A DNA stretch of 57,758 bases from a virus. This document shows positions 9,409 through 53,159 of the stretch, in pieces. The notes under the pieces were generated by a model. The model had not been told where the DNA came from. It saw nothing but the letters and a program-made list of their open reading frames with translations, and made no database searches. Position numbers and translations under genes: made by a program. The stretch is from IMG/VR virus record IMGVR_UViG_3300020442_000002, positions 1 to 57,758 of that record, one strand, 5' to 3'. Each line of letters begins with the position of its first letter. Position 1 is the stretch's first letter.

Positions 9409-9465
9409 AACCGAATCCTGACATCCGCATGGGGCGGGTGACACTGGCCACGACAGGAGACTCAC

Positions 9466-9867
9466 ATGGCTAACACTACTTTTAACGGACCCGTTCGATC
9501 AGAAAACGGTTTTCAGTCCGTATCTAAAAACGCGACTACTGGTGCAATCACCGTAGGCACTTCTTACAGCGATATCATCACCGGTTCAGTGCAATCTCTA
9601 AGTGGTGCGGGGGCTGTCAATCTCACAGATTTGATTACCGAAGTAACCACAACTGGTGCAGATGCACTGACGCTTGCTGACGGATCAGCCGGTCAAGTTA
9701 AGATCATCACAATGATCGCAGACGGAGGGAACGGAACGCTTACCCCAACAACTCTTGCCGGTGGTACTACAATTACCTTTAATGATGTTGGCGATGGCGT
9801 AGTTCTTGTTTACGGCACAACAGCGGGTTGGGTGGTTGTAGGCAACAACGGCGCAACAATCGCATAA
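9466..9867 (+). CDS. Beta-rich virion protein, 133 aa
   Basis: It has a good ribosome-binding site (AGGAGACTCAC). The product is Gly, Thr and Val-rich with alternating hydrophobics and no catalytic residues, as seen in small capsid-associated or fibre-like proteins. Repeated TTTLAGG and TTITFNDVGDG segments suggest a beta-prism or beta-helix shape. The function is inferred only from position. Confidence 0.65.
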   Translation: MANTTFNGPVRSENGFQSVSKNATTGAITVGTSYSDIITGSVQSLSGAGAVNLTDLITEVTTTGADALTLADGSAGQVKIITMIADGGNGTLTPTTLAGGTTITFNDVGDGVVLVYGTTAGWVVVGNNGATIA

Positions 9868-39569: not shown

Positions 39570-39689
39570 ATGGCGGATCGGTTTAACCGCAACATGGCGA
39601 TCCAGCACGACTTGTCTGTGGTGCCTGAAGCCGACGCAACAAAAGAGATTCTTGAGGTAGTAAGGCCCGATTGGTATACTACGCCTTGA
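39570..39689 (+). CDS. Possible tiny protein after DUF3310, 39 aa
   Basis: An open frame in a different phase from DUF3310 reads MADRFNRNMAIQHDLSVVPEADATKEIL and ends DWYTTP; a GTG at 39552 is another possible start. Composition looks protein-like, but the start and a ribosome-binding site are weak. It could be a separate small gene or simply noise. Confidence 0.35.
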   Translation: MADRFNRNMAIQHDLSVVPEADATKEILEVVRPDWYTTP

Positions 39690-39734
39690 CGGTCACTCCG
39701 TCGAATCAAACGTTTTAGGATTCAAGTAGGCTTT

Positions 39735-39747
39735 TCTCCCAAAGTGA
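39735..39747 (-). promoter_or_regulatory. Orphan copy of the shared leader sequence
   Basis: The minus strand reads TCACTTTGGGAGA here, the 13-base leader that precedes the accessory genes at 47.9-52.3 kb. No ATG follows at the right distance; only a TTG that would give a 10-residue peptide. It may be a remnant of a lost cassette. Confidence 0.45.
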
Positions 39748-39767
39748 GTTGAACTGAATCCGACCAA

Positions 39768-39791
39768 CCCCCCGCAACGGGGGGTTTTTTT
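39768..39791 (+). terminator. Rho-independent terminator after the RHH operon
   Basis: CCCCCCG at 39768-39774 pairs with CGGGGGG at 39778-39784 around CAA, followed by seven T residues. It ends the 38905-39689 transcription unit. Confidence 0.9.
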
Positions 39792-39792
39792 A

Positions 39793-40056
39793 TTAATGGA
39801 TGGTGTCTCCATCGCCGGGCGAAAGATTACCCACCTGCAAAAAGCAGGGCCCGGTTTCCCCCAAGTAAATCCCAAGAATATTGAACTCAACGAACTCTTT
39901 TGCTTCGTCCCATGACATGTCGATGCTGTCGTCCATGACAATTTTGATCATCTTCTGAACGTCGTAGACCAACACTTCTTCATCGCCGTCTTTTGTGGAA
40001 ACCGTGCCAATTCCAAGAATGGCTTCGTCAAACCCCTCTGGCCCCATCATTTGCAT
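39793..40056 (-). CDS. Conserved small phage protein, 87 aa
   Basis: The ATG at 40056 gives a protein with acidic and helical parts, MSWDEAKEFVEFNILGIYLGETGPCFLQVG being the most protein-like block; many phages have a small protein with the pattern DEAxE..xxNxxGxYxGExxPxF. The gene is divergent from the Cas4-like nuclease gene. The function is unknown. Confidence 0.72.
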   Translation of the reverse strand: MQMMGPEGFDEAILGIGTVSTKDGDEEVLVYDVQKMIKIVMDDSIDMSWDEAKEFVEFNILGIYLGETGPCFLQVGNLSPGDGDTIH

Positions 40057-42178: not shown

Positions 42179-42207
42179 TTGTATACGACTCGTGTATGCG
42201 ATAAAGT
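42179..42207 (+). promoter_or_regulatory. GTATGCGATA promoter for the oxygenase operon
   Basis: GTATGCGATA lies at 42194-42203, with TTGTAT at 42179-42184 as possible -35 and TAAAGT at 42202-42207 as -10 (17-base spacer). The same motif is used by the accessory cassettes further right, so this operon is probably controlled with them. It lacks their leader hairpin and ACTTTGGGAG. Confidence 0.6.
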
Positions 42208-42249
42208 ATTGTTCTACCTTTAAGCCTACTACATAACCGAGGAAAAAGA

Positions 42250-42531
42250 ATGAAATTCAACCCCATGCTACGCATTACCCGGAAAGCTGACCGCGTCGAA
42301 GCGGCTAAATCTTTTGAAGACAACGAAGGCTTCCGGGAGTACGTGATGGACATGCTGGAGAAGCGGGCTAAAGAATCCCCGGCGTCAGAAGAGTATAAGC
42401 TTATGGAGTCTTTGAGCTATGCCTCCACCGATGAGGACTTTGTGTTCAAGTTGTGCCAGATGGGCTACATCATCTACACCGACTTCCTCATGGATGCTTA
42501 TGCGGGGTTTGAAAAGAAGCATTTGCACTAA
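42250..42531 (+). CDS. Hypothetical helical protein, first gene of oxygenase operon, 93 aa
   Basis: AGGAAAAAGA precedes the ATG. The protein is helical and charged, with an EGFREYVMDMLEKRAKESPASEEYKLM block. It overlaps the next gene by one base. I do not recognise it. Confidence 0.68.
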   Translation: MKFNPMLRITRKADRVEAAKSFEDNEGFREYVMDMLEKRAKESPASEEYKLMESLSYASTDEDFVFKLCQMGYIIYTDFLMDAYAGFEKKHLH

Positions 42532-44916: not shown

Positions 44917-44977
44917 GTATGCGATACTATGGGGTGTTCCACGTGGAACACTCTTTTAACTACTTTGGGATTTAATC
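44917..44977 (+). promoter_or_regulatory. Expression module with parS-like leader palindrome
   Basis: GTATGCGATA at 44917-44926, then the perfect palindrome TGTTCCACGTGGAACA at 44935-44950, then ACTACTTTGGGATTTAATC before the ATG at 44978. In other cassettes a GC-rich hairpin stands where the palindrome is here. The palindrome equals the proteobacterial-type chromosomal parS consensus; a second copy is at 53144. Confidence 0.75.
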
Positions 44978-45235
44978 ATGAAACCAGAAACCACTAACGA
45001 CGTACCGCTGACCCAAGCGGAAACGCAATACGGCAAACCCCAAGACCGCATCGTCAAGCTGCTCCAGCTAGGATTCAGCCGGGATGAAGTCTTTTACGAC
45101 ATCTGCGAAAAATGCTCCATGTCTACCACCCACAGCCGGTCACCCAAAAAGCGTAAGCAGGAACTCGCTAACCTCATCGCCCAAATAGACAGCATGAGCG
45201 TCTTCGCCACCGGCACCATCCCGGAGGGCGCGTGA
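44978..45235 (+). CDS. Hypothetical small protein under the shared module, 85 aa
   Basis: The protein is helical and polar with KPQDRIVKLLQLGFSRDEVFYDICEKCSM and a Lys-Arg-rich segment (SPKKRKQELANL). It might bind nucleic acid. No family is recognised. A GTGA overlap links it to the next small gene. Confidence 0.62.
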   Translation: MKPETTNDVPLTQAETQYGKPQDRIVKLLQLGFSRDEVFYDICEKCSMSTTHSRSPKKRKQELANLIAQIDSMSVFATGTIPEGA

Positions 45236-45396
45236 AAGACAAAGAAAGGGGCTGGGTGGAGATTATGGATAGCACCCTGAGAATCCGGGAGGATGGCCGC
45301 GTGGACTGCTACAGCCCCGCAGGCTACCGCATCCTCGACCTCGACAACCTTCCCGAGGAAACACAACAAAAGCTCAAGGACGCGGCAGGTGAGTAA
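45232..45396 (+). CDS. Small acidic protein, 54 aa
   Basis: The GTG start overlaps the upstream stop. It contains GWVEIMDSTLRIREDGRVDCYSP and an LDLDNLPEETQQKLKDAAG end. No function is known; the overlaps on both sides support it as a gene. Confidence 0.5.
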   Translation: MKDKERGWVEIMDSTLRIREDGRVDCYSPAGYRILDLDNLPEETQQKLKDAAGE

Positions 45397-45484
45397 CCGA
45401 ATAGGTGAACTGCTCGTCGCCGCGGCTATCGCCGTAGCCGGGATAAGCGTCATCATCGGCGTACTATTCCTCTTGATCCTTTGA
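45389..45484 (+). CDS. Tiny single-membrane-span peptide, 31 aa
   Basis: It starts at a GTG overlapping the previous stop. After VSNRIGELL the rest is one hydrophobic segment (VAAAIAVAGISVIIGVLFLL). It probably sits in the inner membrane. Confidence 0.45.
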   Translation: MSNRIGELLVAAAIAVAGISVIIGVLFLLIL

Positions 45485-45488
45485 TCGT

Positions 45489-45542
45489 GACCCGGGGTCC
45501 GTGAATAGGTCATTTCTGGCCACGGTTCACGGACCTCGGGTC
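45489..45542 (+). repeat. 17-bp inverted repeat (one mismatch)
   Basis: The arms are 45489-45505 and 45526-45542. Each carries a copy of the dispersed CACGG-type sequence. A T-rich run follows (TTAATTT), so it could also end transcription of the 44978-45484 genes. Confidence 0.75.
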
Positions 45543-45608
45543 TTAATTTCGCTATCTATATAGTGTTTTCCCAGAGAAATAAAAAAATAAAAAATAAATT
45601 AAAAATAG

Positions 45609-45633
45609 GCGTAACCGGCGTAACCGCGTAACC
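45609..45633 (+). repeat. Three iteron-like GCGTAACC repeats
   Basis: Three direct copies occur within 25 bases beside an AT-rich tract, with inverted versions 35-60 bases downstream. The arrangement resembles the iterons and AT-rich element of an origin. Confidence 0.7.
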
Positions 45634-45844
45634 ATGGCCTGAAAGCCGCACAAACACTGGGTTTTTGTGGTTACAGCGGGTTACACGGGTATACGCCATT
45701 ATGTGCAGAGTTTGTTAATCAGGCTATTGCTATTGAGGTTTTTCAGTTTTGAAAAAAATTATTTTTATTTTTCTGGGAAATATATATAGGGAGGGCAAAA
45801 TTAAGGTATGGTTATGCTGACTTACTCACATATAGGGGCCTTCC

Positions 45845-46462
45845 ATGCCTAAACAGAAAAGCCGCTATGCCAAGGTGCTGGACACCAAAGCGGCATCCCT
45901 TCCCGAAGCCAAGCGCCAGAAGCGCAATCGACCTCCGCTGGCCGAAAAGCGCCTGACCCGAAAGCAGGAGCTTTTTGTCCGGGAACTCGTGTCAAAAGAT
46001 GGACAGATCACCATGCGGGAAGCGGCAATCAACGCAGGCTATCCCGAACGGTCTGCCCATGTCCGAGCCTCTGAATTAACTAACCCCAAGATTAGCCCGC
46101 ACGTTTGCCGTGCGATCCGCGAATATCGACAGGAGCTTGATCAAAAGTACGGCGTGGAATACCAGCGCCACCTGCGGGATCTTCAAGTCATCCGAGATGC
46201 AGCGCTAGAGAACGGTGCGTTTTCTGCCGCAGTGCAGGCCGAGTATCGGCGGGGTCAGGCGCAGGGGGACATCTACGTCAACAAGACGGAAATCCGGCAC
46301 GGCACGATTGAGCAGATGAGCAAAGAAGAAGTCTTGAAAGCTCTGGAAGAACTCAAGCAGGTGTATGCGCCCTTGACACACGATGCCGGAGTGGAGGATG
46401 CTGGTAATAGAAAAAAAGCAAGAGAACGTCTGGGAGATCAAGCAGTAGATGTTTCTGATTAG
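45845..46462 (+). CDS. Terminase small subunit, 205 aa
   Basis: After a basic 35-residue start comes the Terminase_2 type DNA-binding core: LTRKQELFVRELVSKDGQITMREAAINAGYPERSAHVRASELTNPKISPHV, a helix-turn-helix with the NAGYxxxSAxxxASELL-like pattern, then long helices (YGVEYQRHLRDLQVIRDAALENG) for oligomer formation. It recognises phage DNA for packaging. The large subunit is 7.5 kb away at 53328, separated by the accessory cassettes. The region just upstream is a candidate pac site. Confidence 0.8.
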   Translation: MPKQKSRYAKVLDTKAASLPEAKRQKRNRPPLAEKRLTRKQELFVRELVSKDGQITMREAAINAGYPERSAHVRASELTNPKISPHVCRAIREYRQELDQKYGVEYQRHLRDLQVIRDAALENGAFSAAVQAEYRRGQAQGDIYVNKTEIRHGTIEQMSKEEVLKALEELKQVYAPLTHDAGVEDAGNRKKARERLGDQAVDVSD

Positions 46463-46604
46463 ATTCTTTGGCCGCCTTTGGTTTGGCCGTGAGAAGTGGG
46501 CGATCATGAATGAAGAGCAGACGCCCATTGTGTATCGACCCAAGGCATTTATGTCTGAGTTAGAGCGGTTAGACTTTGAAGGCCTGATGAAACAGGATGA
46601 TTAA
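46449..46604 (+). CDS. Small protein overlapping terminase small subunit, 51 aa
   Basis: The frame begins MFLIRFFGRLWFGREKW, with a second in-frame ATG at residue 20. It overlaps TerS at the start and the VRR-NUC gene at the end. The function is unknown; either start is possible. Confidence 0.5.
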   Translation: MFLIRFFGRLWFGREKWAIMNEEQTPIVYRPKAFMSELERLDFEGLMKQDD

Positions 46605-47046
46605 AGTAAAGAACCTACCACACACGGTGACTGATATTTTAGACACGCCGGTTAAGGCGAAGCGCCCTCGCGAAGCCAGCTTTTGGCAGGCCATGAAACA
46701 GGCCATGAAAACACATCACCCTGATTGGAGTGCCACGCGATTAGAGTCTCGTGCCACGCAGGGTGTGCCCGACGCTTTAATTTTGGACAGCGACGGTAAT
46801 TGGCATCTGGTGGAGTTGAAGACCACTCAAAACAATTCTGTCCGCATCTCGCCTCATCAGGTAGCTTTTGCTACCAAACACGCCCACGGCAGTTGCTGGA
46901 TCGCAGTTAAGCACCCTGCGGGGGTGTCCCTGTACCGTGGCGATTGCGTGATGGATCTGCGCCTAGATGGATTGGACTCTGAGCCCACCGCGCTTTTCCC
47001 CACGCCCGTAGATTGGGCGGCCTTTTTCAAAACACTTGCCACATAA
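46597..47046 (+). CDS. VRR-NUC domain nuclease, 149 aa
   Basis: ATRLESRATQGVPDALILDSDGNWHLVELKTTQNN carries the PD-(D/E)XK signature: Glu50, Asp59, Glu73 and Lys75, with ISPHQ downstream. Single-domain VRR-NUC proteins in phages can be structure-specific nucleases, similar to Holliday-junction resolvases. Its position next to the terminase suggests it trims branched DNA before packaging, which is inference. Confidence 0.83.
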   Translation: MIKVKNLPHTVTDILDTPVKAKRPREASFWQAMKQAMKTHHPDWSATRLESRATQGVPDALILDSDGNWHLVELKTTQNNSVRISPHQVAFATKHAHGSCWIAVKHPAGVSLYRGDCVMDLRLDGLDSEPTALFPTPVDWAAFFKTLAT

Positions 47047-47065
47047 CTAATCAATCGCATACACT
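47036..47065 (+). promoter_or_regulatory. Promoter TTGCCA-18-TACACT
   Basis: TTGCCA at 47036-47041 and TACACT at 47060-47065, with an 18-base spacer, repeat the geometry of the early promoter at 32290. It lies upstream of the three small genes starting at 47106. Confidence 0.6.
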
Positions 47066-47105
47066 CGGTGTAGGCAATGATGCCTGCACATATTGGGAGG
47101 TGTGT

Positions 47106-47324
47106 ATGAGTATGTTGTGTGAGTTGTGGACCGTGGAGTCTGGTGAAAAGGTCCGGTGGTTTGAAACTGAGAAAAGCGCTCGGGAGTTTGCGCGGGATAT
47201 GTTCAATGTCCACGAGGATGGGGTGCCTTTCGTCAACTGGATCACGTTGGTAGACAAAGCGGATTTGTGTTGGCAGTTAAACCATCTGGAACAATTTACG
47301 CCAGACCACTGGGAGGATGCGTGA
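47106..47324 (+). CDS. Small hypothetical protein, 72 aa
   Basis: GGGAGG is upstream of the ATG at 47106. The protein has LCELWTVESGEKVRWFETEKSAREFARDMFNV, a compact alpha-beta pattern. It overlaps the next gene (GTGATG). The family is unknown. Confidence 0.62.
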   Translation: MSMLCELWTVESGEKVRWFETEKSAREFARDMFNVHEDGVPFVNWITLVDKADLCWQLNHLEQFTPDHWEDA

Positions 47325-47530
47325 TGACAAGAGGTGAAGCTGCGGAACAGCGGTATGCTGGATTGAACTATGACCACTCCTTGCCGCAGGGTTGGGTAGA
47401 CGCCTGCAGTGAGAAGGGCATGGACCCGAGGGGTCATTTCGTTTGGCTGTTTGATGATTATGTCGGACGGCCCGCCCCGATCACCGAGGAGGGCGACCGG
47501 ATCGTTAGCCTGCTGGCTCGCACCCCATGA
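47324..47530 (+). CDS. Small hypothetical protein, 68 aa
   Basis: The ATG at 47324 overlaps the previous stop. The protein contains DHSLPQGWVDACSEKGMDPRGHFVWLFDDYVGRPAP and is acidic and compact. No family is recognised. Confidence 0.58.
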   Translation: MTRGEAAEQRYAGLNYDHSLPQGWVDACSEKGMDPRGHFVWLFDDYVGRPAPITEEGDRIVSLLARTP

Positions 47531-47694
47531 TCACTCATGCGTTTGATCTGGGCTTTGATATTGAGTGCGGCCTGTCCGATCCCGAAGACATTCCTGCCGA
47601 GGTTTTGAGGGCCGCGATTCAGCAATTGGTAGACAGCCTGTCCGACGAAGAATTATTGAACGCCTGCGCCATCGTAGACAGCGTTGCGCACTGA
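47527..47694 (+). CDS. Small acidic helical protein, 55 aa
   Basis: ATGA overlap with the previous gene. It is rich in Asp, Glu, Ala and Leu (PEDIPAEVLRAAIQQLVDSLSDEELLNACAIV) and ends right at a terminator. The function is unknown. Confidence 0.55.
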   Translation: MITHAFDLGFDIECGLSDPEDIPAEVLRAAIQQLVDSLSDEELLNACAIVDSVAH

Positions 47695-47718
47695 CCCCGC
47701 TCCGGCGGGGTTTTCCTT
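47695..47718 (+). terminator. Rho-independent terminator, CCCCGC type
   Basis: CCCCGC at 47695-47700 pairs with GCGGGG at 47705-47710 around TCCG, followed by TTTTCCTT. An identical stem-loop ends the next unit at 48371. Confidence 0.88.
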
Positions 47719-47798
47719 GTCAAGCTTTTTTTTCGCGCCCCGCAAACCCGCACCGTTATTGAACCCGCCTTTTCAAATCGCCCCGATTTGGCCTGTTT

Positions 47799-47830
47799 TT
47801 GAAATTTTAAAAAATACCGTATGTTATAAT
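47799..47830 (+). promoter_or_regulatory. Strong extended -10 promoter
   Basis: TGTTATAAT at 47822-47830 is a perfect extended -10 element. TTGAAA at 47799-47804 is 20 bases away and may be only a weak -35. It drives the boxB/boxA leader below and, through it, the cassette row. Confidence 0.7.
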
Positions 47831-47834
47831 ATGC

Positions 47835-47869
47835 GCATCAAGTCCAAGCGACTTCGATGCTCTTTAACA
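47835..47869 (+). promoter_or_regulatory. rrn-type antitermination leader: boxB-like hairpin and boxA
   Basis: GCATCAAGTC (47835-47844) pairs with GACTTCGATGC (47850-47860, one bulged C) around a five-base loop. TGCTCTTTAACA at 47858-47869 is an exact copy of the E. coli rrn boxA. In rRNA leaders boxA recruits NusB/S10 and SuhB to resist termination. Here it would let host factors protect a phage transcript. Confidence 0.7.
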
Positions 47870-47951
47870 GCGCTGGCCTAGCACCGAGACGCGAGTCCGC
47901 TATCGGATGGCAACTTCTCAAAAACTTCATTTTCACTTTGGGAGACAAGCA

Positions 47952-48359
47952 ATGGATAATTCACTTTACGTTGTAATCGCGGCTAACCACTGTTGGGGTG
48001 CGGCAGAGTCTTTAACCGAGGCACTGAGCAACGCTCACTTGAGAGAGCAAACCCGTCTGAGTCATTTTGATTGGGTGTTTGATCAAGAGGAGTTAGAGGA
48101 ACGGTGGGATAGCTGGAAAGAATACGGCGAGCAGGATTGGCGAGAAGAGATTGAGTTCTCTGATGAAAAGCCAACCGAGTGCCTGATCTACCGGTTAGAT
48201 TGCGAGGTCTGGAAAAGCTACCGGATCTGCGACATGTCGGGAGGGATAAGTGCCGAGCCTCTTGATCCTAAGATGACCGGCGCGGAGGCCAGCAAAAAGC
48301 TGGCTGAAATCCAGATCAGGGCGCTGTTCGATAACGGGGTACTAAAACCCCTCAAGTGA
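47952..48359 (+). CDS. Acidic accessory protein 1 (cassette), 135 aa
   Basis: The ATG at 47952 stands after CACTTTGGGAGACAAGC, the shared leader; the longer frame start at 47907 is not used. The protein is acidic with VFDQEELEERWDSWKEYGEQDWREEIEF and has a compact alpha-beta ending. It may be a host-takeover or anti-defence protein because of the accessory setting and charge, but the family is unknown. A terminator follows. Confidence 0.65.
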   Translation: MDNSLYVVIAANHCWGAAESLTEALSNAHLREQTRLSHFDWVFDQEELEERWDSWKEYGEQDWREEIEFSDEKPTECLIYRLDCEVWKSYRICDMSGGISAEPLDPKMTGAEASKKLAEIQIRALFDNGVLKPLK

Positions 48360-48370
48360 ATCCAAACCAA

Positions 48371-48394
48371 CCCCGCTCCGGCGGGGTTTTTTTT
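48371..48394 (+). terminator. Rho-independent terminator
   Basis: CCCCGC (48371-48376), TCCG loop, GCGGGG (48381-48386) and eight T residues. The promoter of the next cassette begins 8 bases later. Confidence 0.92.
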
Positions 48395-48401
48395 GGCCCG
48401 C

Positions 48402-48455
48402 GTATGCGATACTCTCCCCCTGCGGAATCCACCGCATCACTTTGGGAGAGTGAAC
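48402..48455 (+). promoter_or_regulatory. Expression module (promoter, hairpin, leader)
   Basis: GTATGCGATA at 48402-48411, a hairpin TGCGG...CCGCA at 48421-48436, and CACTTTGGGAG just before GTGAAC and the ATG. The TGCGATACT part reads as an extended -10 element. Confidence 0.75.
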
Positions 48456-48950
48456 ATGACAACACTGGAACACGGGCAGGACCCTGCCACCGTGACCAAC
48501 CCCGATTACTGGGATTGCGAATGCAAGACTAATTACATCCGGCCCAAACAAAGCTTGGGTGCGGACCAATCAAAATTTGAGTGCCGCCTCTGCGGGGCGA
48601 GTGAAGACGAACAGCCGGACAGCCGAGCCGACGAAGTCGCGGCGGCACTGGCGGACGTTGAGTTGTGGCCTGCGATTGAAATGCGAGATCACTATCAGGT
48701 TCACGGTTGGGTTTCGATGGATACGAAGATTGACATCTTGGCGTCCTCGGAAGAGGAAGCGATAAAGATTGCCGAGCGTGTTTTTAATCAGCGCGTTATC
48801 GATATGTATAACGCCAGCATTGGAGCCGACGAACGGGTGCATGACGATTGGTATGAACCCGGATGCGACCAAATGGAAATTGTGGACATTCGCGAGTATG
48901 ACGGCGATTCCTGCTGGACTCTGAAATCCAGCGAAGAATTTACCGATTGA
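48456..48950 (+). CDS. Accessory protein 2 with zinc-binding N-terminus, 164 aa
   Basis: The ATG at 48456 follows the shared leader. DCECKTNYIRPKQ and FECRLCGASEDE give four cysteines for a zinc ribbon near residues 20-50. A helical domain and a beta-rich part with WVSMDTKIDILASSEEEAIKIAERVFNQ follow. It is strongly acidic overall. No family is recognised. Confidence 0.65.
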   Translation: MTTLEHGQDPATVTNPDYWDCECKTNYIRPKQSLGADQSKFECRLCGASEDEQPDSRADEVAAALADVELWPAIEMRDHYQVHGWVSMDTKIDILASSEEEAIKIAERVFNQRVIDMYNASIGADERVHDDWYEPGCDQMEIVDIREYDGDSCWTLKSSEEFTD

Positions 48951-48967
48951 AATTTTAAAAAGAGGAC

Positions 48968-49037
48968 TTGCCGCCCCACCGCCGGTATGCGATAGTTCGG
49001 GTGCGGCAATTCGCCGCCTACTTTGGGAGAAGTAACC
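48968..49037 (+). promoter_or_regulatory. Expression module (promoter, hairpin, leader)
   Basis: TTGCCG at 48968-48973 is followed after 17 bases by GATAGT, overlapping GTATGCGATA (48985-48994). The GCGGC...GCCGC hairpin at 49003-49017 and TACTTTGGGAG complete the module. No terminator is seen between this and the previous gene. Confidence 0.75.
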
Positions 49038-50171
49038 ATGCAACATACGATTGAAAATTCAGACAACACCCTGACCCGCTTGCTTCAACAGGTGCAGGAT
49101 CAAGCCGCCAGATCGCAGGATTTTCTGGCCCCCACTAATCAACTTCAACTGATGACCGGTGATCGGGGCGATGGCAGTAAGGTCAGCCAGATCATCATGG
49201 AGCAGTCTGGCGGGGCACCGACTCAGATTCTCGCCGCTAATGAGGTGGCGTTTGATCAGATCAGCCAGCGGGCGGGTATCGACGTTCGGACTGCTCGCCG
49301 GTTACAACAGGATTACTCCACTGAGTTCGATGGACTGATCAATGCTATCTGGCAAAAAGAGCCCGCCGTCAGAATGATCCGTTCGTTCCAGCACTCTGAC
49401 CGCGCAGGCACTGCCCGCGCATTTGTCAGCGACAAATTTAAAACGTTCGATAACGTTCACCTGTTGCAGTCCGCACTGCCCGAACTGCTGGAAAGCGATG
49501 CCCAGTGGAAAGTGGTGAACGGTCAGGTGACTGATAAGCGGCTGTACCTCCGACTCAAGTCGGAAGTAATCACGGGGGAAGGCGCGGCTGTTGGCGACAT
49601 CATGGCGCTGGGCATTGGGATGTCTAACAGCGAAGTCGGTTGCGGTAGCGTGAACGTGTTCCAAATGTTCTGGACGCTGGCCTGTTTGAACGGGATGCAG
49701 ACCGAGAAGCGGACCCGCAAGTCTCACATTACTGGGGCGCGGGGCGATGCCGATACTTGGGGCCTGCTGACTGACGAAGCCAAGGATGCGGATAACCATG
49801 CGCTGGCGCTTCAAATGCGGGATGTCACGAGAGCGTATGCTAGTCGCGAGGCGTTCGATGAAGTGCTGGAAAAAATGAAAGCTGCTCACGACGATAAAGT
49901 CGAGGGCTCGCCGCAGTCTGCTGTCGAGGCTATGGGCAAGGTGCTGGCACTCACCAAAAAAGATACCGCCAGTTTGATGGACGGCCTGCTCGCCACTATC
50001 GGTCAGGCGGGCTACGCCGGTCAGCCGGTAACCCGCGCCACAATGGTGAACGCGGTGACGGCGGTAGCGCATCAGGCGGACCCCGATACGGTTGACGATT
50101 GGCAGAAACTGGGCGGGCGCGTTCTGGACCTGCCCCGCTCCGATTGGCAACGTGTAGCGATGGCGGCATAA
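49038..50171 (+). CDS. DUF932 phage/plasmid-like protein, 377 aa
   Basis: The ATG at 49038 follows the shared leader. The arrangement fits DUF932 (TIGR03299-like) proteins: a DRGDGSKV and TRRLQQDYSTEFD N-terminal part, DKFKTFDNVHLLQSALPEL, LRLKSEVITGEGAAVGDIMALGIGMSNSEVGCGSVNVFQMFWTLACLNGM, then a helical C-terminal half. The family is common on phages and plasmids near anti-restriction genes; its action is unknown. A terminator follows. Confidence 0.8.
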   Translation: MQHTIENSDNTLTRLLQQVQDQAARSQDFLAPTNQLQLMTGDRGDGSKVSQIIMEQSGGAPTQILAANEVAFDQISQRAGIDVRTARRLQQDYSTEFDGLINAIWQKEPAVRMIRSFQHSDRAGTARAFVSDKFKTFDNVHLLQSALPELLESDAQWKVVNGQVTDKRLYLRLKSEVITGEGAAVGDIMALGIGMSNSEVGCGSVNVFQMFWTLACLNGMQTEKRTRKSHITGARGDADTWGLLTDEAKDADNHALALQMRDVTRAYASREAFDEVLEKMKAAHDDKVEGSPQSAVEAMGKVLALTKKDTASLMDGLLATIGQAGYAGQPVTRATMVNAVTAVAHQADPDTVDDWQKLGGRVLDLPRSDWQRVAMAA

Positions 50172-50187
50172 CTCGGTCCCCAAAGTG

Positions 50188-50225
50188 CCCCCCGTATGGT
50201 TTGCCCTGCGGGGGGTTTTCTTTTT
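50188..50225 (+). terminator. Rho-independent terminator
   Basis: CCCCCCG (50188-50194) pairs with CGGGGGG (50209-50215), followed by TTTTCTTTTT. The next promoter motif begins at 50231. Confidence 0.88.
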
Positions 50226-50230
50226 CTGGG

Positions 50231-50287
50231 GTATGCGATAAATTCCCCAGTGCGGTAATTCTGCCGCACACTTTGGGAGAAAGTTTC
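50231..50287 (+). promoter_or_regulatory. Expression module (promoter, hairpin, leader)
   Basis: GTATGCGATA at 50231-50240, hairpin GTGCGG...CCGCAC at 50250-50269, then CACTTTGGGAGAAAGTTTC before the ATG. Confidence 0.75.
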
Positions 50288-50491
50288 ATGGAAACCACAG
50301 CAGAAAAACGCCTCGCCTCTGGGGCATTACATTCCGATTATTTCAGCAGTCTGGACGCGCTCCGAGAGTCGGGCGTCATGAATATGTTTGGCGCTCCGCG
50401 TTGGCTTCAAGACAATTTTGATCTGAACCGCAACGAAGCGCGGGCGGTGTTTGTATCTTGGACCGAATCATTTCAAGGGGGTGACGAGTAA
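50288..50491 (+). CDS. Small accessory protein 3, 67 aa
   Basis: The ATG at 50288 follows the shared leader. It contains LDALRESGVMNMFGAPRWLQDNFDLNRNEARAVFVSWTESF, a pattern common in small phage proteins of many environments. The function is unknown. The last base overlaps the next start. Confidence 0.7.
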   Translation: METTAEKRLASGALHSDYFSSLDALRESGVMNMFGAPRWLQDNFDLNRNEARAVFVSWTESFQGGDE

Positions 50492-50847
50492 TGGCAACCC
50501 TCAATATTTATTTGCAAGATTACGAAGTCGAGCCCTCCGAGCTATCCATTAGCGTTTGGGAGGCCCCCGCTTTTTTAGAAGATAATTCTATTAGCCCCGA
50601 AGATCTTCACGGCGAGTGGACTGCGCTTGATCTTTACATCCGCGAAGAATGCACCCCCGATTTAAACGCGGACAAAATTGCGGAGTTAATTGCGGGCGGC
50701 GGCTGGGAGCCAGACGATTTAGACCGGTTTATTATAAATTGCGTCCGGTGTTTAAAACTGCAAATTATTGGTGAGAAACAAAGGGCGGCGAGCGCGATGC
50801 GCGATCTTAAATTCGGCCCCCCATTGGAAACCGCTGAAGCGGGATAG
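50491..50847 (+). CDS. Acidic accessory protein 4, 118 aa
   Basis: The ATG at 50491 overlaps the previous stop (TAATG). The protein is acidic (DYEVEPSELSISVWEAPAFLEDN) with helices in the C-terminal half. No family is recognised. Confidence 0.6.
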   Translation: MATLNIYLQDYEVEPSELSISVWEAPAFLEDNSISPEDLHGEWTALDLYIREECTPDLNADKIAELIAGGGWEPDDLDRFIINCVRCLKLQIIGEKQRAASAMRDLKFGPPLETAEAG

Positions 50848-50864
50848 CCCGCACCCGATCCGAT

Positions 50865-50892
50865 AGCCCGCCACACTGGCGGGCTTTTTTTT
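50865..50892 (+). terminator. Rho-independent terminator
   Basis: AGCCCGCC (50865-50872) pairs with GGCGGGCT (50878-50885), then eight T residues. Confidence 0.92.
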
Positions 50893-50901
50893 GCCCGCAT
50901 G

Positions 50902-50953
50902 GTATGCGATAGTGATCGGGCCGCGATTGGCGGCGACACTTTGGGAGATTGTC
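50902..50953 (+). promoter_or_regulatory. Expression module (promoter, hairpin, leader)
   Basis: GTATGCGATA at 50902-50911, a short GCCGC...GCGGC hairpin near 50920-50934, then GACACTTTGGGAGATTGTC before the ATG at 50954. Confidence 0.75.
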
Positions 50954-51646
50954 ATGAAATTACTTGATACCCGTGGAGGGAATACCAAACTCAGAAAAAC
51001 GGGCGAGGCCGCCCCGTTTCGATATGCTGGGCTATCGCTCTACCCTGATCCGGTTTTATGCCCGGGCGCGAAGGCCGCTGGGTGCATGGCGGATTGTCTA
51101 GCCGAGCAGGGCCGCGGACGGTTTACCAGTGTCCGGCGGGCCCGAATCAGCAAGGCGGATTTTTTGCGGGAAGATCGTGCGGGTTTTCTGGATCAATTGC
51201 ACCGAGAGCTGCTGAACTTTTCAAAGCTTTGCGAGCGCAATGGGGAGCGGGGCGCGGTGCGGCTTAATGTTTTATCGGATCAGCACTGGGAGCGCGATGG
51301 CGTACCCCAAGCGCACCCTGATCTGTTGTTTATTGACTACACCAAACGGGCGGCGCGGCTGGGGAAAACCCCAGAAAATTACCGGTTGATTTTCAGCTAT
51401 AGCGGGCGGCCCCAGTACCGGAACCAAAACCGGCGAGCATTCCGAACGGGTGCCCCCGTGGCGGTAGTGTTTCGCGGCGGGTTTCCGCGCACGTTTCTCG
51501 GGCGGCCCGTTATAGATGGGGATCGGGATGATATTGCGAACGCATTCGCGGCGGGGCAAATCGTGGCGCTAACCCCGAAAGGATCGGCGGCCCGTGATCG
51601 CTCCGGCTTTGTTATTGATAATCCCGACTTGATCGGGTCCGCGTGA
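50954..51646 (+). CDS. DUF7227-like phage protein, 230 aa
   Basis: Features match a widespread phage family: NTKLRKTGEAAPFRYAGLSLYP, the cysteine cluster CPGAKAAGCMADCL (Cys36, 44, 48) followed by EQGRGRFTSVRRAR, RLNVLSDQHWERDG near residues 103-116, and IDGDRDD plus LTPKGSAARDRSGFVIDNP at the C-terminus. Members are often in accessory regions; no function is proven. The clustered cysteines may bind metal. The stop codon touches the next promoter motif. Confidence 0.75.
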   Translation: MKLLDTRGGNTKLRKTGEAAPFRYAGLSLYPDPVLCPGAKAAGCMADCLAEQGRGRFTSVRRARISKADFLREDRAGFLDQLHRELLNFSKLCERNGERGAVRLNVLSDQHWERDGVPQAHPDLLFIDYTKRAARLGKTPENYRLIFSYSGRPQYRNQNRRAFRTGAPVAVVFRGGFPRTFLGRPVIDGDRDDIANAFAAGQIVALTPKGSAARDRSGFVIDNPDLIGSA

Positions 51647-51697
51647 TATGCGATAAATGTCTGGCGGCAATGTTGCCGCGCACTTTGGGAGATTGAC
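51646..51697 (+). promoter_or_regulatory. Expression module (promoter, hairpin, leader)
   Basis: ATATGCGATA at 51646-51655 (first base differs from the usual G), hairpin GCGGCAA...TTGCCGC at 51664-51679, then GCACTTTGGGAGATTGAC and the ATG at 51698. No terminator precedes it. Confidence 0.72.
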
Positions 51698-52147
51698 ATG
51701 GAAACAAAAACGCTAGTTGTCCGCCCGTCCGAATTGATACTTGATCGGGTTTTAAATCCTGCTGGTGATGCGGATCTGAACCGCGTTCAACCCGCCCAGC
51801 TTTTAGAGGCTTGCGGGATCATTCCTGATTTTTTCGTGGAGGCTTGCATTACTGCCGAAACGGAAAACCCTGACGGCGTGAATCTCGACGCCATAGCGGA
51901 CGCGATGGACAACGTTTACCAGTTCGGCGGGTTCCAGTATCCACTGGGGGGCGATCTCGACGCGGACGGGGTTTACCGATCCCAATACGCCGAAGATCCC
52001 GATATGTCGCCGCTAGTCCGGTTTACCTACGCGGTGACCATGGGCGGGATCGTTTCACAGGCTTTTGAGTGTTTTGTCTATCAGTACGGGATCACGGCGA
52101 TCCGCGAGCGCGGGAGAGAAGCCGCTAAGGTTGCGCGTTTCGATTAA
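51698..52147 (+). CDS. Accessory protein 5, 149 aa
   Basis: The ATG follows the shared leader. The product is acidic with AQLLEACGIIPDFFVEACITAETENP, DNVYQFGGFQYPLGGDLDADGVY and a helical end. Similar proteins occur on phages and plasmids, as far as I recall, with no known role. A terminator follows. Confidence 0.68.
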   Translation: METKTLVVRPSELILDRVLNPAGDADLNRVQPAQLLEACGIIPDFFVEACITAETENPDGVNLDAIADAMDNVYQFGGFQYPLGGDLDADGVYRSQYAEDPDMSPLVRFTYAVTMGGIVSQAFECFVYQYGITAIRERGREAAKVARFD

Positions 52148-52167
52148 CCCGCCCGCTGCCGAAACCC

Positions 52168-52193
52168 GCCCGCCACATGGCGGGCTTTTTTTT
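52168..52193 (+). terminator. Rho-independent terminator
   Basis: GCCCGCC (52168-52174) pairs with GGCGGGC (52179-52185) around ACAT, then eight T residues. Confidence 0.92.
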
Positions 52194-52200
52194 GGGCGCG

Positions 52201-52255
52201 GTATGCGATACCCTCGACGGGCCGCAATGACGCGGTGACACTTTGGGAGATTGAC
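52201..52255 (+). promoter_or_regulatory. Expression module (promoter, hairpin, leader)
   Basis: GTATGCGATA at 52201-52210, a CCGC...GCGG hairpin near 52222-52235 and GACACTTTGGGAGATTGAC before the ATG at 52256. Confidence 0.75.
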
Positions 52256-52507
52256 ATGATCAAAATTGCACCACTGGATCAGATACACGGCGACATGGTT
52301 TTGTGGCGTTGTGTGAAGCGTTTGGGAGACTTCACGCCCATCGATGGCGCGGAGTATGTGGTTCAGAAAACGCGCAACGCCGCGCCGCTGATCTACCGCG
52401 CCGCGAACGGTAAGCTCCGCTCTACTGGGGACACGCTCGCGCGGTGGGGATTCTTTGACGATCCGTCAGATCTGATCCGCGTACCGTCACGGGGGCGCGA
52501 GTCATGA
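52256..52507 (+). CDS. Accessory protein 6, 83 aa
   Basis: The ATG at 52256 follows the shared leader. The protein is beta-rich and basic (MVLWRCVKRLGDF, YVVQKTRNAAPLIYRAANGKLRSTG). No family is recognised. ATGA links it to the next small gene. Confidence 0.6.
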   Translation: MIKIAPLDQIHGDMVLWRCVKRLGDFTPIDGAEYVVQKTRNAAPLIYRAANGKLRSTGDTLARWGFFDDPSDLIRVPSRGRES

Positions 52508-52662
52508 GCGGCACCCAGCTTGAGCAGGTTCAATTTCACTTGCAGTTTATGGGGGTGCTGGCGATGGCAGGCCGAGCGGATGAGGCCGACGAGCAGTACC
52601 GCGAAGCCCAAAAGCTACTGGCGGAAATGATCGAAGCCGAGCGGGCTCGCGCCGAAAGTTAG
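52504..52662 (+). CDS. Small helical accessory protein 7, 52 aa
   Basis: ATGA overlap with the previous gene. It is a helix-rich peptide (LEQVQFHLQFMGVLAMAGRADEADEQYREAQKLLAEMIEAERA). It ends before a terminator. The function is unknown. Confidence 0.55.
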   Translation: MSGTQLEQVQFHLQFMGVLAMAGRADEADEQYREAQKLLAEMIEAERARAES

Positions 52663-52684: not shown

Positions 52685-52709
52685 AACCCGCCCCCGTGGC
52701 GGGTTTTTT
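52685..52709 (+). terminator. Rho-independent terminator closing the cassette row
   Basis: AACCCGCC (52685-52692) pairs with GGCGGGTT (52698-52705), then T residues to 52709. Confidence 0.9.
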
Positions 52710-52792: not shown

Positions 52793-52802
52793 GTATGCGA
52801 TA
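52793..52802 (+). promoter_or_regulatory. GTATGCGATA motif with no gene after it
   Basis: The extended -10 motif TGCGATAAT is complete, but only a 28-codon Arg-rich frame (from 52814) and non-coding sequence follow. There is no ACTTTGGGAG leader. It may start a non-coding RNA that crosses the palindrome region towards the terminase gene. Confidence 0.5.
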
Positions 52803-52913
52803 ATGGCTCAACCATGCGGGCTAGACGTTCAAGTGATTTGTTAAGTATGGGCCGCAACCGTAACAGCAGGGGCGGGGGCCGCGCCCCCTGTTCCCCCTAA
52901 AACGTACCGCGGG

Positions 52914-53143: not shown

Positions 53144-53159
53144 TGTTCCACGTGGAACA
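53144..53159. promoter_or_regulatory. parS-like palindrome, second copy
   Basis: TGTTCCACGTGGAACA, identical to 44935-44950 and to the proteobacterial-type chromosomal parS consensus bound by ParB. No parB or parA gene is seen in the phage, so binding would be by host ParB. Confidence 0.75.

Follow-up and report, generated by a model that had tools for sequence, protein, structure and literature searches.

A set of gene cassettes with a common leader

We analysed a virus record of 57,758 bases from IMG/VR (IMGVR_UViG_3300020442_000002; hereafter the window), whose portal, primase, helicase, DNA polymerase A and terminase genes are those of a tailed phage. It contains a series of small gene cassettes that open with a common ribosome-binding leader, together with a putative small RNA (sRNA) that carries the complement of this leader. 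An earlier note on this DNA had described a repeated order of promoter, hairpin, leader and ATG, and all of its motifs were found where it placed them. RTATGCGATA has nine exact matches in the window, every one on the plus strand, and seven of these have ACTTTGGG 15–35 bases downstream; the backwards-read pattern gave no match. The seven units consist of an extended −10 element TATGCGATA, a hairpin at the predicted +1, ACTTTGGG(AG) and a start codon. The remaining two TATGCGATA sites (42194 and 52793) are bare, without the ACTTTGGG leader.

All units lie on the plus strand. The first module (44917–44971) has its promoter at 44917–44926, the hairpin GTGTTCCACGTGGAACAC at 44934–44951 and the leader ACTTTGGGAT at 44962–44971, before gene 44978–45235. 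The module at 48402–48448 (promoter 48402–48411, hairpin 48421–48436, leader 48439–48448) precedes gene 48456–48950, and that at 48985–49029 (promoter 48985–48994, hairpin 49003–49017, leader 49020–49029) precedes gene 49038–50171 (phrog_1362). The next, at 50231–50279 (promoter 50231–50240, hairpin 50250–50269, leader 50270–50279), heads two genes, 50288–50491 and 50491–50847. Gene 50954–51646 (GP88, PF17338) follows the module at 50902–50947 (promoter 50902–50911, hairpin 50920–50934, leader 50938–50947), and gene 51698–52147 follows that at 51646–51691 (promoter 51646–51655, hairpin 51664–51679, leader 51682–51691). The last module, at 52201–52249 (promoter 52201–52210, hairpin 52221–52236, leader 52240–52249), again heads two genes, 52256–52507 and 52504–52662. 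As previously noted, gene 47952–48359 has the same leader behind a different promoter: its unit (47820–47944) contains TATGTTATAAT at 47820–47830, a boxA-like GCTCTTTAACA at 47859–47869 and the leader ACTTTGGGAG at 47935–47944.

The description of these units as stand-alone cassettes of one or two genes holds. GAG follows the leader in most units, but not in that of 44978, which carries ACTTTGGGAT. Terminators end five of the seven units from 47952 to 52662, but none follows the 48456 and 50954 units; the units after these two use a TTGnnn −35. The terminators are found at 48369–48388, directly 5′ of the 48402 promoter, before further units at 50188–50218 (read from the sequence), 50865–50885 and 52168–52185, and 3′ of the last unit at 52685–52705, all on the plus strand. 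BLASTP revealed no clear relationship among the ten proteins of the cassette region, bar one weak pair (E about 0.05–0.08).

The module in related phages

Recurrence in relatives, which the earlier note had proposed as a check, was found. An IMG/VR scan for TATGCGATA-N15..40-ACTTTGGGAG returned 65 stretches, many with two to six copies and four of them chance-like; about 60 IMG/VR contigs have the module. Relaxing the pattern gave 183 distinct modules from the window and its relatives, with spacers mostly of 25–31 nucleotides (nt). Across relatives, the modules precede about 27 unrelated protein families, cassette gene content differs from contig to contig, and a module of one kind can stand before one gene in one contig and before another gene elsewhere. 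In 257 gigabases of bacterial and archaeal contigs, the scan with the first pattern yielded only 20 single matches, with scattered spacing and no hairpin; as these amount to chance background, a host origin of the module was rejected. INPHARED contains no DNA match for the module or the sRNA, and neither TATGCGATA nor CTTTGGGAG occurs in the searched stretches of HTVC023P, HTVC027P, 023Pt_psg01 and DSL-LC04.

The collection bears out the reading of the promoter as an extended −10. TTG stands exactly 17 bp before GATA in 48 of the 65 modules without an upstream T tract, as against at most five at any other spacing, and in 109 other modules a terminator T tract occupies this place. The promoter TATGC-GATAnT has the TGn before the −10 that marks sigma-70 extended −10 promoters, with or without a −35; the first base of its −10 is almost always G, which departs from the consensus. 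A sigma-28 promoter, considered for CGATA, is ruled out by the TTG at 17 bp. At three loci (L217, L218 and L230), the place of the promoter motif 5′ of the 49038 homologue holds TATCGCATA, the reverse complement of TATGCGATA, and other modules contain TATCGCATATGCGATA-like palindromes; TATGCGATA may have a role as a dyad.

The hairpin varies in sequence but not in place. Of the 183 distinct modules, 97% attain a stem score that is attained by 25% of shuffled spacers. The commonest stem start is the seventh base after GATAnT, the usual +1, and the base there is G in 127 of 164 cases. The 84 different stem-loops have highly diverse stems, with flipped G-C/C-G pairs among the differences, and almost every loop has AAU or GAU. 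In 46 diverse modules, 91% of cells pair, and the covariation score is 0.39, compared with 0.18 for shuffled and at most 0.155 for slid controls. Selection for structure, as the earlier note had suggested, is thus upheld by the variable stems, flipped pairs and covariation. Hairpins of the same kind are kept in lineages whose leaders differ, indicating that they do not encode sRNA specificity; protection of the 5′ end, or holding the leader open, are the simplest ideas for their job.

A putative anti-leader RNA upstream of the cassettes

Outside the cassettes, a perfect ACTTTGGGAG is present in a single copy, on the minus strand at 39736, which reads CTCCCAAAGT on the plus strand. This site lies about 5 kb upstream of the cassettes and about 20 bases 5′ of an intrinsic terminator (39766–39786, plus strand), the first-ranked terminator-like site in 39.3–53.4 kb. 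A promoter, TTGAGG-N17-TATACT with TG before the −10, is found at 39652–39680 and is the sole plus-strand promoter-like site with TG in the same region. A small RNA of about 107 nt is probably made from 39687–39793 on the plus strand, as judged from these signals. It would comprise a 5′ hairpin, a loop stem (GGATTCA/TGAATCC) and the terminator, with the seed TCTCCCAAAGTGA (39735–39747), an exact complement of the leader, displayed in the loop.

A dedicated IMG/VR scan found CTCCCAAAGTG followed by a terminator in 82 stretches (a handful of which are of another type) and TCTCCAAAGTG in 10, and in relatives the arrangement likewise lies upstream of modules. L289, L291, L310, L252 and L313–L315 were excluded as another type or chance. 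About 39 distinct versions form one family with a 5′ hairpin, a variable pairing stem, the seed in the loop and a terminator. The promoter TTGAnn-N16..18-TAnnnT is present in 38 of 39 homologues, 31 of which have TGn, and the 5′ hairpin in 82% of versions, as against 24% of shuffled ones. RNAalifold on a MAFFT alignment showed only the terminator, the loops being misaligned, and a cross-pairing test was used instead: the arms of the loop stem pair in 87% of cases with their own partner, 35% with arms from different sequences and 11% after shuffling. Fold z-scores of three sRNAs were −3.6 (that of the window), −2.7 and −5.2. No Rfam family scored above its gathering threshold at the locus.

We compared the sRNA with 983 possible start regions in the window. 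Only those of 47952, 48456, 49038, 50288, 50954, 51698 and 52256 have 12–14 contiguous complementary nucleotides (14 for 50288, 13 for 47952 and 48456, 12 for the rest; start 48450, which was also listed, lies in frame with the 48456 gene and belongs to it), whereas shuffled sRNAs reach maxima of 8–11. All seven of these leaders have GGGAG. Gene 47952 ranks among the best targets even though it lacks the module's promoter motif and hairpin, which argues that the leader is selected apart from them. The last Shine-Dalgarno base is changed (GGGAA or GGGAT) in 37 of 155 leaders, a share that is if anything too low given the bias of the first scan towards GAG, while CTTTGGGA hardly varies. This is expected if RNA pairing, beyond ribosome binding, is selected. 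The bare TATGCGATA promoter at 42194–42250 precedes gene 42250, in whose leader 9 nt, AAGCCTACT, are complementary to another part of the sRNA loop (39717–39725).

A second anti-leader element, CCCAAAGTG, is found at 50179–50187 on the plus strand, downstream of the gene 49038 stop codon and ahead of the terminator. In relatives, the site has ACACTTCCCAAAGTGT, a small hairpin whose loop holds the seed. This element may yield an antisense RNA derived from the 3′ untranslated region (3′ UTR), or may pair with the 5′ leader of its own mRNA.

Leaders and RNAs change together

Four types of leader occur, each with its own RNA: CTTTGGGA with TCCCAAAG, CTTTGGAG with CTCCAAAG, CTACGGGA with TCCCGTAG, and CTACGGAG with CTCCGTAG. 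Among the 53 loci that have both parts, there is no exception to this matching. The 41 loci with RNA CTCCCAAAGTG have TTTGGG leaders, and the five with TCTCCAAAGTG have TTTGGAG in every module (these 46 loci include the window); a single G in the leader and a single C in the RNA distinguish the two types. At the site of the second element, CTCCAAAG is found in two CTTTGGAG-lineage loci, L210 and L233. New repeated leaders were found in other terminase relatives, and the predicted complementary RNA was then found in two groups: ACTACGGGA with RNA TCCCGTAGT (L159, L165 and L354), and ACTACGGAG or TACGGAGAA with CTCCGTAGT (L145, L153, L154 and L158). In these two groups, which make up seven further loci and have the leader/RNA pairs AACTACGGGA/TCCCGTAGTT and AACTACGGAG/CTCCGTAGTT, the RNA lies on the same strand as the leaders and before a terminator. 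In predicted duplexes, every RNA type pairs best with its own leader. An unbiased scan found the reverse complement of repeated leader k-mers before a terminator in 36 of 100 locus-strands, compared with two for reversed and none for complemented k-mers.

Leaders of the CTTT type and of the CTAC type sort into two well-supported clades of a TerL tree, each with an internal change in the G run. A switch from three to two G is seen a single time in the CTTT clade and one or more times in the CTAC clade, so the sequences indicate that independent leader/RNA switches are few, yet more than one. In HTVC023P, HTVC027P, 023Pt_psg01 and DSL-LC04, the TerS–TerL interval contains a repeated leader of its own in each phage (AACTAACAAA, TAGAAAGGTATAAT, AAAGAAAGGATAAT and ACATACAGGAGAAA) before small genes. 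Shared leaders in this slot may therefore predate the CTTTGGG type. These four leaders have no complementary copy in the DNA examined beyond the leaders themselves; a 9-nt complement in DSL-LC04 was dropped because it is not conserved in the relatives of that phage.

A proposed mechanism and its alternatives

We propose, with a probability of about 0.77, that a phage antisense sRNA pairs with the shared ribosome-binding leader and represses the whole set of cassettes. Every cassette would be transcribed from its own host sigma-70 promoter, an extended −10 with TTG at a distance of 17 bp or, in its stead, a terminator T tract. The transcript would begin at or within a few bases of the stem-loop with its AAU-containing loop, directly followed by the leader ACTTTGGGAG with the Shine-Dalgarno sequence. 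The RNA of about 107 nt from 39687–39793, showing TCTCCCAAAGTGA in a loop and ending in its terminator, would pair with the leaders of the eight genes together, block ribosome binding and repress the set. The comparisons strongly support the pairing itself. As the duplex would extend over the Shine-Dalgarno and into the bases before it, repressed initiation would be expected by analogy with c4 and sar (PMC12197685), and we infer repression of translation on this ground. On the best reading, what is conserved is the sRNA target, which promoter and hairpin accompany, since leaders and RNA change together and 47952 keeps the leader without the other two. The parts, their conservation, the covariation of the hairpin, the target specificity and the co-variation of leader and RNA over four types are established at the level of sequence.

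As for timing, the genes, which may act in host takeover, would most simply be shut off after the RNA accumulates. HTVC027P, a relative, is described as lytic, and its early genes are all reported to be functionally unknown (PMC12753301). This would be in keeping with cassettes that act in host takeover.

Several points weigh against this proposal. The sRNA and its 5′ end are predictions from sequence, and the sRNA leaves the hairpin's own role unexplained. The 44978 leader has a match of a mere 9 nt. The target overlaps the Shine-Dalgarno, so part of the leader conservation is expected anyway. Of the 53 loci, many either overlap with one another on one contig or stem from close relatives, and many contigs are fragments; as the switches are also few, the number of independent events is small. 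Finally, in related phages outside the two leader clades, the shared leaders of the DSL-LC04, AGGAGCTA and AAAAAGGTAA types have no conserved complementary RNA in the DNA examined.

Superinfection immunity, in which the sRNA of a resident or earlier phage silences the cassettes of an incoming one and leader types are immunity groups as in P1/P7 c4 heteroimmunity, would be a use of the same mechanism and not an alternative to it. Close relatives do show matched classes of RNA and leader specificity, and c4 provides a precedent (PMC12197685). However, a scan of proteins, which was not exhaustive, found no integrase or repressor, and the lytic description of HTVC027P also speaks against it; we consider this use rather doubtful.

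It is improbable that these are plain expression cassettes, in which promoter, 5′ hairpin and strong leader are alike because they are efficient and complements elsewhere are due to chance. Promoter and Shine-Dalgarno are clearly present, and a hairpin at +1 suits protection of the mRNA 5′ end. This would not account for the conserved ACTTT bases outside the Shine-Dalgarno, for dozens of relatives with an exact complement before a terminator and behind a conserved promoter, for the joint change of leader and complement, or for scan controls of two and zero against 36. Homogenisation, by which duplication and recombination at repeated leaders and terminators spread the cassettes so that their likeness is history, is very unlikely as the whole explanation. 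Leader, hairpin and terminator types are common to many gene families, and one kind of module precedes different genes. On the other hand, 47952 has the leader without the module, the leader is fixed while hairpin stems differ widely, and the sRNA, itself no cassette, changes in step. Homogenisation may hold beside sRNA repression, for the exchange of cassettes. Least credible is a sponge, in which the leaders would titrate the sRNA and so spare its main targets, in the host or elsewhere in the phage. Numerous copies of one leader, each behind its own promoter, could do so, but seed and leader are tied to each other and change jointly in each of the four types, and no other start region of the phage matches the sRNA by more than 10 nt.

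Comparison with known systems

Stabilising stem-loops of the ompA type are known at mRNA 5′ ends. The hairpin resembles them in its position, with the stem starting on the predicted 5′ end or a few bases from it and the leader following directly, and differs in its conserved loop sequence (AAU) and in being kept in lineages with different leaders. The earlier note had likened the cassettes to morons with a shared leader. This fits the layout of stand-alone early cassettes, with their own promoter, one or two genes, a terminator (lacking in two of the seven units from 47952 on) and variable gene content, but misses the likely reason for sharing, the putative complementary small RNA at 39687–39793. 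Unlike morons, these cassettes would be joined into one regulon by a common leader and a common antisense RNA.

The nearest known systems are c4 of P1/P7, sar of P22 and the SAS of cluster K mycobacteriophages. c4 and sar are phage antisense RNAs with the complement in a loop, and block the ribosome-binding site. Here, the RNA has 12–14 nt of complementarity to seven ribosome-binding leaders and 9 to the eighth, and folding and the covarying loop stem place the complement in the loop of a structured RNA. Like the leader types, c4 specificities differ between related phages (P1 and P7). Homology to P1/P7 c4 itself was not found in Rfam at this locus or in INPHARED. A single mRNA, ant, is the described target of c4 and sar (PMC12197685), whereas one trans-acting RNA here matches eight dispersed units with separate promoters, and in relatives the target is common to about 27 gene families. 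In cluster K mycobacteriophages (TM4 and relatives), SAS stands at many gene starts, often with an upstream inverted repeat (ESAS) (PMC3203893, PMC12699233), as the leader does here; sequence and hosts differ, the SAS consensus being GGGATAGGAGCCC and the leader ACTTTGGGAG. Bases 1–50000 of TM4 contain ten SAS and no complementary (anti-SAS) copy on the same strand.

The phage antisense RNAs in the literature that we found are described for one target apiece, and no regulator is known for SAS and similar shared start sequences. In the present case such a sequence occurs along with a putative phage RNA that reads it, and the two show natural compensatory changes in at least four types. This would be a simple route for phages to coordinate scattered, exchangeable cassettes; it makes a clear prediction for related freshwater and marine phages, and would provide ready-made orthogonal sRNA/leader pairs. 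A wider picture, which we regard as speculative and on balance unlikely, is that the takeover genes form an RNA-addressed regulon in a phage clade that is abundant and largely uncultured. The leader would be the address and the sRNA with its 3′ UTR copy the key, periodically re-coded together and thereby creating RNA-based immunity groups among co-infecting relatives.

Other elements in the window

The GCTCTTTAACA element between the promoter and leader of 47952, which we take to resemble the rrn boxA antitermination element, is conserved among relatives, and CTACGG-type and DSL-LC04-type phages have similar sequences in front of lineage-specific leaders. GTTCCACGTGGAAC occurs twice, at 44936–44949, within the first module's hairpin, and at 53145–53158; it presumably matches the palindrome of chromosomal parS, the ParB site. 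In some relatives, CATGTG or CACATG takes its place. At 52793–52900, a bare TATGCGATAAT is followed by a small hairpin, ATGGctcaaCCAT, in a long non-coding stretch before the terminase gene. An Rfam Mu-gpT-DE RNA (RF03012) is located at 9416–9468, directly after the 8444–9349 gene.

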